Assembly (NCBI GenBank): GCA_015491735.1
Contig: WFVH01000039.1
Span: forward strand, 1 to 62,468
DNA length: 62,468 nt
From: Gammaproteobacteria bacterium
Lineage (GTDB): Bacteria > Pseudomonadota > Gammaproteobacteria > Thiohalospirales > Thiohalospiraceae
Reading direction: 5' to 3'
Shown one piece after another: positions 10,847-15,588 of this stretch. Within the stretch, counting starts at the first letter, position 1; each line of letters opens with the position of its first letter. The translations under genes were made by a program, and so were the position numbers. The notes below the pieces were generated by a model, which was not told the DNA's origin, did not search any database, and saw only the letters and a list, made by a program, of their open reading frames with translations.

Positions 10847-11829
10847 AAAAAGCGAAAAAAGTACTTGACAAGGTTTTATCATCATTTTCTCGATTTCATT
10901 GATGATGGAGCGAGCTTTGCTATAGTCTATCCCTGGCGCCACGGGAGGCCCGCCAAAGGCTTTCCTTGCGCCCCGTGATCACGGGGCCTGATTATATTTT
11001 TCAACACCTCAGATCGGCTCACAGGAAGCAAAATGCCGTCCTGAAAACCCGTGCGATAATGTCCGTATTCAAGGTTAGCCGAGTGCGGGCAATTGAAGAT
11101 GGAAAACATTGACGTTGATGCATCAATCAACGCTGTCAAAGACCTTCTCGAGAAAGAGAAAGACCTCTCTCCTGCGCTGCGCTCGGCACTGGAAGTCTTG
11201 CTCCTGCTGGTGGCCTTGTTGTTGAACCGCCTCACCCTCAACAGCAGGAACAGCAGCAAGCCACCCTCCCTGGACCCCAATCGGAAGAGGTCCTGCAAGA
11301 AGAAAGGTAACAGAAAGCCGGGCGGCCAGAAAGGCCATAACGGAACCACCCTGGAGCCGGTGGATGATCCGGATGAAGTGACTGAGATCTCGATTGACCG
11401 TCGCACCCTGCCCAGGGGGCCACGGTATCGGGAGGTGGGCCATGAAAGCCGCCAGGTCATCGATATTGATATCTCGCGGTTTGTCACCGAATACCGGGCT
11501 CAGGTTCTGGAAGACGAACAGGGCAACCGGTTTGTCGCCGCTTTTCCGGAAGGCGTCAACCGGCCGGTGCAGTATGGTCTCAACCTGAAGGCAAGCGCAG
11601 TCTATCTGTCGCAGTTCCAGCTGATGCCCTATGATCGGGTCCGGGATCACTTCCGGGATCAGCTGGATATTCCGCTCAGCGCGGGTTCAGTCTTCAACTT
11701 CAACAAGGAAGCCCATGACCGGCTGGAGCCTTTTGAGCGATGGGCAAAAACCGAGCTGGCCAAGTCCACGCTCATGCATGCCGATGAGACCGGCATCAAC
11801 ATTGGTGGCAAGCGCCATTGGCTACACTG
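10823..11829 (+). mobile_element. IS66-like element, left part only
   Basis: It begins with GTAACTATTCAGC at 10823, inside the PIN gene, and contains an IS66-type transposase from 11099. The right part is missing: the transposase frame is interrupted at about 11829 by the Y1-transposase element, and no IS66 sequence resumes after 12771. The same 13-bp terminus bounds the palindromic repeats at 29.7 and 62.3 kb. The left boundary is inferred from loss of the PIN frame, not from a target duplication. Confidence 0.65.
11099..11829 (+). pseudogene. IS66-family transposase, 3' truncated
   Basis: N-terminal about 243 residues of an IS66 transposase (TnpC type, normally about 450-520 aa). Seen are the leucine-rich helix, the NSRNSSKPPSLDP motif, the zinc-finger-adjacent basic stretch KPGGQKGHNG, and the first catalytic Asp region HADETGINIGGKRHW. 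The frame then enters the repeated left end of the Y1 element and continues as nonsense (HTHGVTHMGSG) to a stop at 11914. The second catalytic Asp and the Glu are absent, so it is inactive. Confidence 0.88.
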
Positions 11830-11830
11830 C

Positions 11831-12771
11831 ACACACATGGGGTCAGGTCTTGTGCACACACATGGGGTCACACACATGGGGTCAGGTCTTGTATTTTGCC
11901 TTTTGTTGCCGTAATCTTGGCACGTATGGTCAGACCCTTACGAATAGAGTTTGCGGGTGCGCTGTATCATGTCACATCACGAGGTGACAGACGGGAGGAT
12001 ATCTATCTGGATGATGAGGATCGGCAACGGTTTTTGGAGGTGCTGGAAGCCGTTTGCGAGCGATTCAACTGGGAGGTGCATGCCTACTGTCTGATGTCCA
12101 ATCATTATCATTTGCTTGTTGAAACGCTGGACGGAAATCTGTCCCGGGGCATGCGTCAGCTCAACGGGGTTTATACGCAGCGGTTCAACCGACGGCATAC
12201 AAAGGTGGGACATGTATTCCAGGGGAGGTACAAGGCAATTCTGGTGCAGAAGGAGAGTTACCTGCTGGAGCTGTCCCGATACATTGTCCTCAACCCGGTA
12301 AGGGCAGGCATGGTAAGAGCCGCAAAGGATTGGCGCTGGAGCAGCTACCGGGCTACGGCGGGTCTTGTGCCATCTGAGCGGTGGTTGACCATCCGTTGGC
12401 TGTTGGCTGGATTTTCCCGTCGCAAGATAGAGGCGCAGCAGACTTATCGCAGATTTATTGCCGAAGGCAAGGGTCAAGCGGGGCCGTGGCGGGAATTACG
12501 CAGCCAGATCTATCTGGGCGATGAGGGCTTTGTTGAAGAGATGCAACGCAAGATTTCACCTGATACAACATTAAGCGAGGTGCCAGCATCTCAACGAAGG
12601 CAGGTGGCGAAGCCGCTGGCGTATTATCAAGAGCAGTACGGCGATAGAAACACGGCAATTATCGAGGCATACGAAAGTGGGGCCTATACCATGAAGGAAA
12701 TCGGAGACCACTTCCGGCTGCACTATTCGCGTGTTAGCCGGATAGTGAATGCAAAAGACAAGACCTGACCC
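11831..12771 (+). mobile_element. REP-associated (RAYT/Y1) transposase element
   Basis: The left end contains GGGGTCAGGTCTTGTATTTTGC (11878-11899), matched in inverse orientation by GCAAAAGACAAGACCTGACC (12751-12770). The left terminus is iterated: CACACATGGGGTCA occurs three times between 11830 and 11884, two of them followed by GGTCTTGT. It lies inside the IS66 transposase. The transposase stop codon is within the right repeat. Confidence 0.75.
11926..12768 (+). CDS. REP-associated tyrosine (Y1) transposase with C-terminal HTH
   Basis: About 280-aa single-stranded-DNA transposase of the IS200/IS605-like RAYT group. The HUH motif lies in LMSNHYHLLVE, and the catalytic Tyr is expected in the ELSRYIVLNPVRAG helix. 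The N-terminal MVRPLRIEFAGALYHVTSRGD is typical, so ATG 11926 is chosen although the frame is open earlier. The C-terminal 45 residues form a helix-turn-helix (AYTMKEIGDHFRLHYSRVSRI), as in longer RAYT subgroups. RAYTs mobilise or maintain REP sequences and are usually domesticated. This copy looks intact and is bounded by matching inverted ends. Confidence 0.9.
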   Translation: MVRPLRIEFAGALYHVTSRGDRREDIYLDDEDRQRFLEVLEAVCERFNWEVHAYCLMSNHYHLLVETLDGNLSRGMRQLNGVYTQRFNRRHTKVGHVFQGRYKAILVQKESYLLELSRYIVLNPVRAGMVRAAKDWRWSSYRATAGLVPSERWLTIRWLLAGFSRRKIEAQQTYRRFIAEGKGQAGPWRELRSQIYLGDEGFVEEMQRKISPDTTLSEVPASQRRQVAKPLAYYQEQYGDRNTAIIEAYESGAYTMKEIGDHFRLHYSRVSRIVNAKDKT

Positions 12772-12797: not shown

Positions 12798-15266
12798 ATG
12801 TTTATGACTCAGTACCGGTATCGACTGCGTGCGACCACTCTATCTGTGCTCAGCATGCTTCCGCTATCGGCCTGCCTCGATAACGGAGGGCCAGACTGGG
12901 TTATTCCCGGCCACACCGTCAGCACAAATGCCGGGGCAGGAGGAGGCATCAGTCCGGCAACTGCAGCTGTCGAACATGGAAGCCGCATCAGTTTCAACAT
13001 AACCCCGGACGAGGGCTACAGCATCACCCAGGTGACCGGATGCGGCGGTTTATTATCGGGAACCACCTATACCAGCGGCGCTATCGTCACTGACTGCACA
13101 GTCAACGCAAACTTCAGCATCAGCAGCCACACAATTACTGCCAAAGTTGGGGTTGGTGGCAACGTCAGTCCACCAAGTACCACCATCAACCACGGCAACA
13201 GCACCAGCTTCATTGTGACCCCTGATACCGGCTATGACATCGACCGCGTGAAGGGCTGCAACGGCTTATTGTCAGGCACCACCTACACCACCGGGCCCGT
13301 TACCGAGGAGTGCACAATCACCGCCAACTTCGTCATCAAAAACCATACCGTCACCGCCAGCGCTGGAACCGGTGGCAGCATCACCCCAACCAGCATCTCT
13401 GTCGCGTACGGCGGTACCCTCAGCTTCACTCTGAATCCAGACAGCGGCTACAACATCAACAACGTCACCGGCTGCAACGGCTCATTGTCAGGTACAACCT
13501 ACACCACAGCAGTTATCACCAGCGACTGCGCAATAAGCACAACCTTCATCCGAAAGCCGCCGGCAACAGCCGCAACGCTTTCCCTGACATTTATCCCGAC
13601 AAAAAACTTCCGTTTCAGCTGGACGGATGTGGCCGATGCCACCCACTATCGACTGCTGGAAAATCCGGACGGCAGCTCCGGCTACGCCCAGGTTGGCGGT
13701 GATATTCCCGCTGGAATCCAGAACATCAACCATTACGCACCGCTGCATGCCCGCATCAACGGCCAATACATTCTGCAAAGCTGCAATGATGGGGGATGCA
13801 CCGATTCACCCATCCTATCAGTCAGCGGCACCCTGACCGAGAGTATCGGTTATTTCAAGGCCAGCAACACCGGAGCAAGCGATCAGTTTGGCTATGCCGT
13901 CGCCCTGAGCGGAGATGGCGACACCCTGGCTGTCGGAGCCCCCGCCGAAGACAGCAACACAACCGGCGTCAATAATGGCAGCAACAACTCTGCAGCAAAT
14001 TCGGGAGCGGTATACATCTTTGCGCGCAGTAGCAACAGCTGGAGCCAGCAGGCCTTCATCAAGGCCAGCAATACCGGCGCGGGAGACCGGTTCGGTTATG
14101 CCGTTGATCTGAGCGACGATGGCAATATTCTGGCAGTAGGGGCCTACAGGGAAGACAGCAACACCAGTGGCATCAACGGGGTGGAGACAAACAACTCAGC
14201 CACCGATTCCGGAGCTGTATATCTGTTCACCCGCAACGACAGCGGCTGGACCCAACAGACCTATGTCAAGGCCAGCAACACCGGTGCGAATGACAATTTT
14301 GGCTACACCGTCGTACTGAGCGGCGACGGCCACACCCTTGCGGTAGGAGCACCAGCAGAGGACAGCGCCACTACCGGTGTCAATGGTGATGAAAACAACG
14401 ATTCGGCTGCCGATTCCGGAGCGGTATATCTGTTCACCTACAGTGGCGGCAACTGGAGTCAGCAGGCTTATATCAAGGCAAACAATAGCGGAGCAGGAGA
14501 CCAGTTTGGCTCTGCGATCGATCTGAGTAAGGACGGCAACACCCTGGCGGCAGGTGCCCTTGAGGAAGACAGCAACGCTACCGGGATCAATGGTGACGAG
14601 AACAACAATTCAAGATCAAACTCCGGGGCCGTTTATCTATTTACCCGCAGCGGAAACAGCTGGAACCAACAGACCTATGTAAAAGCGAACAACGCAGGGG
14701 CCGGAGATGGATTCGGCCATGCCGTTGCCCTGAGCGGAGACGGCCGCACCCTGGCGGTAGGCGCCTGGGGAGAAAACAGCGCAGCCTATGGCATCAACGG
14801 CGACGGGAGCAACAATTCAGCAGCCGATAGCGGTGCCGTATATCTGTTTACCGGCAACAGCAGCAACTGGCAGCAACAGGCCTACCTCAAAGCGGGCAAC
14901 AGCAATGCAGGTGACCGCTTCGGCTGGAGCATCAGCCTGAGCAGCAACGGGGACACCCTTGCGGTGGGGGCTCGCCTGGAGGACAGCAACGCCACCGGCA
15001 TCAACGGTGACGAGGCAGACAACTCGATGAGCGGTGCCGGCGCAGCTTTTCTGTTCACCCGCCGCAACGGCGGCTGGAACCAACAGAGCTATATCAAGGC
15101 CAGCAACACCGGGACAGGAGACCAGTTTGGCCGGGCCATCTCCCTCAGTGATAACGCTGACACACTGGCAGTGACGGGATACAGGGAAGACAGCAACGCC
15201 ACCGGCGTTAACGGTGACGCAGCCAATGACGCAAGATCAAACTCCGGTGCAGTATATCTGTATTAG
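12798..15266 (+). CDS. Lipoprotein with three InlB-type repeats and seven FG-GAP repeats
   Basis: 822-aa predicted surface lipoprotein. The signal peptide has lipobox LSAC (Cys about 26). Three divergent InlB_B repeats follow (about 40-250), each with GGxISP...Y-G...F-TPD-GY and two Cys (CGGLLSGTTY...C) likely forming a disulfide. A fibronectin-like segment (about 255-345) precedes seven tandem units of about 69 aa (207 bp) with QFGYAVALSGDGDTLAVGA, the FG-GAP/integrin-alpha beta-propeller motif. Seven blades would close one propeller. No catalytic motif is seen, so adhesion or binding is only inferred from the architecture. It starts 27 nt after the Y1 element, with no good ribosome site; it may have been captured with the island. 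Confidence 0.85.
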   Translation: MFMTQYRYRLRATTLSVLSMLPLSACLDNGGPDWVIPGHTVSTNAGAGGGISPATAAVEHGSRISFNITPDEGYSITQVTGCGGLLSGTTYTSGAIVTDCTVNANFSISSHTITAKVGVGGNVSPPSTTINHGNSTSFIVTPDTGYDIDRVKGCNGLLSGTTYTTGPVTEECTITANFVIKNHTVTASAGTGGSITPTSISVAYGGTLSFTLNPDSGYNINNVTGCNGSLSGTTYTTAVITSDCAISTTFIRKPPATAATLSLTFIPTKNFRFSWTDVADATHYRLLENPDGSSGYAQVGGDIPAGIQNINHYAPLHARINGQYILQSCNDGGCTDSPILSVSGTLTESIGYFKASNTGASDQFGYAVALSGDGDTLAVGAPAEDSNTTGVNNGSNNSAANSGAVYIFARSSNSWSQQAFIKASNTGAGDRFGYAVDLSDDGNILAVGAYREDSNTSGINGVETNNSATDSGAVYLFTRNDSGWTQQTYVKASNTGANDNFGYTVVLSGDGHTLAVGAPAEDSATTGVNGDENNDSAADSGAVYLFTYSGGNWSQQAYIKANNSGAGDQFGSAIDLSKDGNTLAAGALEEDSNATGINGDENNNSRSNSGAVYLFTRSGNSWNQQTYVKANNAGAGDGFGHAVALSGDGRTLAVGAWGENSAAYGINGDGSNNSAADSGAVYLFTGNSSNWQQQAYLKAGNSNAGDRFGWSISLSSNGDTLAVGARLEDSNATGINGDEADNSMSGAGAAFLFTRRNGGWNQQSYIKASNTGTGDQFGRAISLSDNADTLAVTGYREDSNATGVNGDAANDARSNSGAVYLY
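13850..15250 (+). repeat. Seven 207-bp tandem coding repeats
   Basis: Units begin near AAGGCCAGCAACACCGG at about 13857, 14061, 14268, 14475, 14681, 14889 and 15097, all spaced close to 207 bp (69 codons). Each encodes one FG-GAP blade. DNA identity between units is high enough to allow recombination-driven change in blade number. Confidence 0.85.
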
Positions 15267-15280
15267 ACTGTAGTAGAGCC

Positions 15281-15398
15281 TGTTGACGTTTCGTTCTAAG
15301 GTATTGAAATAAAAAAGCAAACTCGTATTATTTGTTTTGCCAAAAACAACAATAGAGTTTGCTTTTTTATTTCAATACCTTAGAACGAAACGTCAACA
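15281..15398. repeat. Perfect 44-bp inverted-repeat hairpin element (MITE-like)
   Basis: The arm at 15281-15324 (beginning TGTTGACGTTTCG, ending AGCAAACTC) is repeated perfectly in inverse orientation at 15355-15398, leaving a 30-nt loop. It is preceded by GAGCC, so the outer end reads GAGCCTGTTGACG; the other end reads GGGTCTGTTGACG. It lies 15 bp after the FG-GAP lipoprotein stop. It contains no gene. The stretch from here to 15603 otherwise holds only the leader of the aldolase/phosphatase gene. Confidence 0.9.
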
Positions 15399-15588
15399 GA
15401 CCCTAGCTTCCGTCTCAATATATTTCTATCGGATCTTCCGGATGGTGACTTGAAACCGGCCATCAGACATCCCGAAAATGAGACATCCGATGCCCATGGC
15501 TACCTTGAGTTGAAGCGGATGGATCCCCATCTATAAGAAGTACTGCTCCACAGCGGCGGCAAACTACTCTTCCTGTTACGCCATCCAC

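Follow-up and report, generated by a model that had tools for sequence, protein, structure and literature searches.

A predicted gammaproteobacterial lipoprotein with an InlB-type stalk of varying length and a seven-unit, integrin-alpha-like FG-GAP head

The window, meaning the whole stretch of 62,468 nucleotides that was analyzed, contains a gene whose product reads as a lipoprotein made up of a signal sequence, three InlB-B-like stalk units, a neck and seven FG-GAP propeller units (Table 1). A Pfam search of the protein returned seven stretches of FG-GAP_2 (PF14312; E 3.5e-56, 187.6 bits against a cut-off of 23) and three of Flg_new_2, the "Divergent InlB B-repeat" (PF18998; E 4e-15, 56 bits against a cut-off of 23.6). 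Each of the three InlB units passes the curated cut-off individually, and they are spaced 216 bp apart with two cysteines per unit, so that the combination of three Cys-containing InlB repeats with seven FG-GAP units given in a preliminary description of this DNA is borne out. The neck (∼90 residues), which is conserved between stalk and head among relatives, matched no Pfam family above cut-off, although its seven predicted strands, read by eye, look FN3-like. The GC content of the gene is 0.573 (0.563 for the window), and a promoter scan returned sites no more frequent than in shuffled sequence.

Table 1. Coordinates of the gene and its parts within the window.
Feature	Position	Strand	Basis
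Whole gene, 822 aa, intact ORF with ATG start; predicted stalk-and-head lipoprotein	12798..15266	+	ORF and Pfam
Signal sequence with lipobox LSAC; Cys26 (12873-12875) predicted to be lipidated, Leu at +2	12798..12875	+	Sequence
InlB-B-like stalk unit 1 (PF18998), Cys82/Cys100	12912..13121	+	Pfam, sequence
InlB-B-like stalk unit 2 (PF18998), Cys154/Cys172	13128..13337	+	Pfam, sequence
InlB-B-like stalk unit 3 (PF18998), Cys226/Cys244	13344..13553	+	Pfam, sequence
Conserved neck, Cys329/Cys334, seven predicted strands	13560..13838	+	Pfam search, model
Propeller unit 1; first strand GYFKAS	13851..14054	+	DNA repeat, unit count, model
Propeller unit 2	14055..14261	+	DNA repeat, unit count
Propeller unit 3	14262..14468	+	DNA repeat, unit count
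Propeller unit 4	14469..14675	+	DNA repeat, unit count
Propeller unit 5	14676..14882	+	DNA repeat, unit count
Propeller unit 6	14883..15089	+	DNA repeat, unit count
Propeller unit 7; protein ends here at GAVYLY, with no outer strand of its own (unit 1 would provide it)	15090..15263	+	DNA repeat, unit count, model

Upstream of the gene (11093-12768) lie an IS66-type transposase remnant and then a Y1 transposase ORF, by eye of the REP-associated type, which stops 29 bp short of the start codon; elsewhere in the genome this DNA has only one short partial match. Nine bp after the stop codon there is a 127-bp palindrome (15276-15402), partial copies of which occur on contigs C12 and C94. Next to the C94 copy stands an ORF that looks, by eye, like an IS5-type transposase, so the palindrome may be a small element formed from two IS ends. 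No surface-export partner gene was recognized beside the gene within the window, and no neighbor was common to the relatives among the loci read. Since the relatives' genes sit among different neighbors, this gene behaves like a free-standing unit. Operon structure and synteny, considered as clues to function, gained us nothing, the neighbors differing among the loci read.

The 207-bp DNA repeats on which the preliminary description drew are real: the head carries seven copies of a 138-nt core, with spacings of 204, 207, 207, 207, 207, and 207, and the copies are 63-76% identical to the first. Both arrays of the gene, stalk and head, are old and quiet. Tandem Repeats Finder gave no rows for a near-identical tandem array between positions 12000 and 16000, no two blades have an identical stretch longer than 19 bp in common, and the stalk units, which are 49-51% identical as protein, share exact tracts of at most 13 bp.

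For the structure of the head we relied on an AlphaFold model of neck plus head, built from four sequences (pTM 0.79, mean pLDDT 74.4), in which the strands repeat through all seven units; the full-length model was poor (mean pLDDT 59.5), with signal, stalk and neck mostly below 50. VIA-align placed the neck-plus-head model against integrin alphaM (Z 34.7, 358 residues, rmsd 3.0), integrin alpha chains made up nearly all of the 50 structure matches, and the first-ranked Foldseek match was likewise an integrin (E 2.3e-16), with the proviso that fold searches including the neck are filled by matches to the head. The WD40 protein Ciao1 scored Z 33.0 against the same model, so seven-bladed rings generally fit nearly as well, and the likeness to integrin rests also on the FG motif, which is present in 252 of the 268 units of the family. 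A DxDxDG-like Ca2+ loop (D-x-[DN]-x-D-G, between strands 1 and 2) was found in none of the protein's own units and in only one of the 268, and an Asp/Asn/Gly-rich loop lies between strands 2 and 3 of every blade. When solved structures were searched by sequence, nothing significant emerged for the whole protein (best E 0.89); the head-neck profile gave a best but non-significant match to integrin alpha-6 (E 0.19), and the stalk gave no match at E 5. In the model, the chain stops once unit 7 has formed its third strand, and one strand precedes unit 1; this first strand (GYFKAS) is a probable closing strand for blade 7. The model thus supports the closed seven-blade propeller anticipated in the preliminary description, of the integrin-alpha/FG-GAP kind and standing at the end of the chain.

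Head units were found in 42 ORFs, four of which (L039, L041, L042, and L057) were set aside with heads cut by a contig end. Among the 38 complete heads, a sample that leans to relatives resembling the seven-unit query, 37 have seven units and one, in genome G004, has six. The counts come from hidden-Markov profiles, with three rows settled by eye (L043 from a printed 7 to 6, L108 from 8 to 7, and L112 from 6 to 7). The six-unit head (L043, on contig C135 of G004) lacks exactly 69 residues relative to that of G003 and has a hybrid first blade, with the junction inside the blade 1/2 region; if the assembly is right, loss of a blade can occur, the other reading being an assembly collapse of a repeat. 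The ring is therefore not absolutely fixed unless such a collapse took place. Blade order is also largely retained: the protein's own blades best match the same-numbered blade in six of six comparisons with G005, five of seven with G007, and three of seven with G003. The G003 protein is a more distant paralogue of the protein described here. In the heads of L035 and L044, exact tracts of 70 and 77 bp recur between blades, which indicates that blades do recombine, and both heads nonetheless have seven units, a pattern that fits selection for closure.

The protein's own genome has three FG-GAP_2 genes, for which the independent Pfam profile gave 21 PF14312 matches above cut-off, seven in each. 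The two further genes are L002:1321-2841 (G000:C3) and L003 (C70). The protein from C3 ends in a Gly-rich, hydrophobic and basic tail resembling a sorting signal. On contig C9 of the same genome, a rhombosortase-family gene scored above cut-off.

The stalk is where copy number differs. Within the genus, the InlB units number three in the gene described here, three in each of G007 and G001, four in G005 (contig C152), at least four in G004, where the ORF is cut at its 5′ end, and five in G003; since we had one genome per species, this is variation between species. Recent duplication of stalk units is apparent in G003, in which units 3-5 are 82-89% identical, and in G005, in which units 2 and 3 are 73% identical. 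The longest exact tracts are 86 bp in G003 and 61 bp in a second G005 ORF (contig C75), which has three full InlB units and a fragment but no head. On the sequences compared, the preliminary description, in which the 207-bp repeats were to drive variable adhesion, assigned the variation to the wrong array: it is the 216-bp InlB stalk that varies and not the 207-bp head, whose only recorded change is the blade lost in G004.

Twenty of the 95 genomes in the relatives set matched at E ≤ 0.001, and 33 of the 369 in the class sample matched neck plus head at E ≤ 1e-40 (own genome counted in both). An InlB stalk and a head occur in one ORF in six of the eight genus members (G000, G001, G003, G004, G005, and G007; own genome included), G002 and G006 having head-type matches only; outside the genus, one genome, G075, has a single PF18998 unit preceding the head. 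PF18998 was searched for in all eight genus members, G000 among them, and in 30 genomes of the class sample that bear a head; 11 of these 38 genomes gave matches. No head was found in four other PF18998 ORFs that were read and no head unit in a fifth, on G044:C11; the remaining PF18998 ORFs are on contigs apart from those of the listed heads, or on the headless G005:C75. The G044 ORF (L055) is itself 1400 aa long, headless, and carries four strong InlB-type units. Other heads stand on cadherin repeats (L047 and L053), a cadherin-like domain (L050) or an unnamed repeat (L046), and in L035, L036, and L044 the head comes directly behind the lipobox. A protein search of genome contigs added three named loci, one from an uncultured Microbulbifer and two from proteobacterial MAGs; by profile, none of the three has an InlB stalk, and a scan of viral contigs gave 63 pattern matches, none of them a relative. 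The architecture, which had been called unusual, is accordingly uncommon, with other heads on other stalks or on none, but it is not unique.

With respect to location, the rule-based lipobox search agrees with the earlier call of a lipoprotein: like the protein itself, 32 of the 36 relatives with an uncut N-terminus have a lipobox (four do not). Lipoproteins lacking Asp at position +2 are sorted by the Lol system to the outer membrane, and a LolC/E gene is present in the protein's own genome (514 bits against a cut-off of 362). Given Lol sorting and the Leu at +2, we infer that the protein is anchored in the outer membrane through a lipidated Cys26. Its exposure at the cell surface and a role in adhesion are likewise inferred. 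A search for PF04575 (SLAM) gave no match, but the controls were equally silent, so that result is uninformative.

We give a probability of about 0.55 to the reading that this is an exported lipoprotein whose InlB stalk holds a closed seven-blade head off the membrane, where it binds a ligand. The lipid on Cys26 would anchor the protein in the outer membrane, the InlB modules, each with one disulphide, would form a stiff spacer; held away from the membrane, the head would bind a polysaccharide, matrix or partner protein. Ligand binding is suggested by analogy, from the fold and the family, and adhesion is one option among others. In this mechanism the first strand after the neck would complete the last blade and so close the ring; the head would be kept at seven units because the ring must close, and the stalk could gain or lose modules freely, so that reach would differ between species while the head stays constant.

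Several alternatives were weighed against this reading. The best of them, unlikely as we judge it, is that the outer-membrane lipoprotein faces the periplasm, where its head would scaffold envelope proteins while its stalk crosses part of the periplasmic space. A lipobox and Lol sorting lead to the outer membrane and not to the cell surface, Cys-paired modules would suit an oxidizing periplasm, and the gene surroundings described above are consistent with this arrangement; stalks that vary in length and can be exchanged for other types, however, are easier to explain by a head that reaches outward. It seems improbable that the head contains an active site, or works as a lectin for one particular sugar, in a lipoprotein of capture or processing rather than an adhesin: the repeated Asp/Asn/Gly-rich loop would suit such a role, and according to PMC8023676 integrin-like propellers group together with VCBS propellers and tachylectins, sugar binders included, but no enzyme family scored above cut-off for the protein in Pfam or NCBIfam, and the loci read share no neighboring gene. 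Very doubtful, finally, is the model of the preliminary description, in which recombination between the 207-bp head repeats alters blade number and thereby adhesion, since the genuine repeats, the one-unit loss in G004, the 70- and 77-bp tracts of two other relatives and the blade-number diversity published for highly repetitive VCBS propellers (PMC9218822) are set against the near-constant count of seven, the short exact tracts of the gene itself, the blade order kept relative to G005, and the seven units of those same two relatives.

The reading of an exported stalk-and-head lipoprotein can be compared with several known systems. Bacterial integrin-type seven-bladed propellers were described by Chouhan et al. 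(2011; PMC3192720), with their location left open and a cytoplasmic role suggested. The present head resembles those propellers in its seven FG-containing units, in a fold nearest to integrin alpha heads, and in a strand before unit 1 that likely completes the last blade; it differs in having no DxDxDG Ca2+ loop, and the present family is exported with a lipobox. Plasmid-encoded FG-GAP_2 (PF14312) proteins of Variovorax and Herpetosiphon, annotated "FG-GAP repeat protein" and "Integrin alpha beta-propellor repeat protein," share the repeat family along the head, but no plasmid record covers ≥80% of the query, and in the 20 of 26 records listed the match begins at the neck or head, with no InlB stalk there. 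The protein is like the Divergent InlB B-repeat proteins (PF18998) in its three units and above-cut-off whole-protein score, but it has no Pfam match to a leucine-rich internalin part, and its head is a predicted propeller. In the open-licence library searched, we found no paper joining FG-GAP, InlB and beta-propeller, and none on Flg_new_2/PF18998; PF14312/FG-GAP_2 gave three.

The closest parallel in design is with Periscope Proteins (PMC8201768), in which a repeat stalk of differing copy number also bears a putative functional head. There the change is at strain level and involves highly identical repeats, whereas here it is between species and the protein's own stalk units are ∼50% identical; the present head is, moreover, C-terminal, and the chain would be anchored by an N-terminal lipid. 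We tentatively extend the comparison to the family as a whole, which could be a Gram-negative lipoprotein family with an integrin-alpha-like ring fixed at seven by closure, interchangeable stalks (InlB, cadherin, other repeats or none) as the only part tuned in length, and the role of a lipid-anchored, periscope-like adhesin. If this is true, this subfamily of bacterial integrin-like propellers would sit outside the cytoplasm as lipoproteins, and a single gene would offer a natural contrast between two arrays whose periods are similar: ring closure would keep one at seven, and the other could vary freely.
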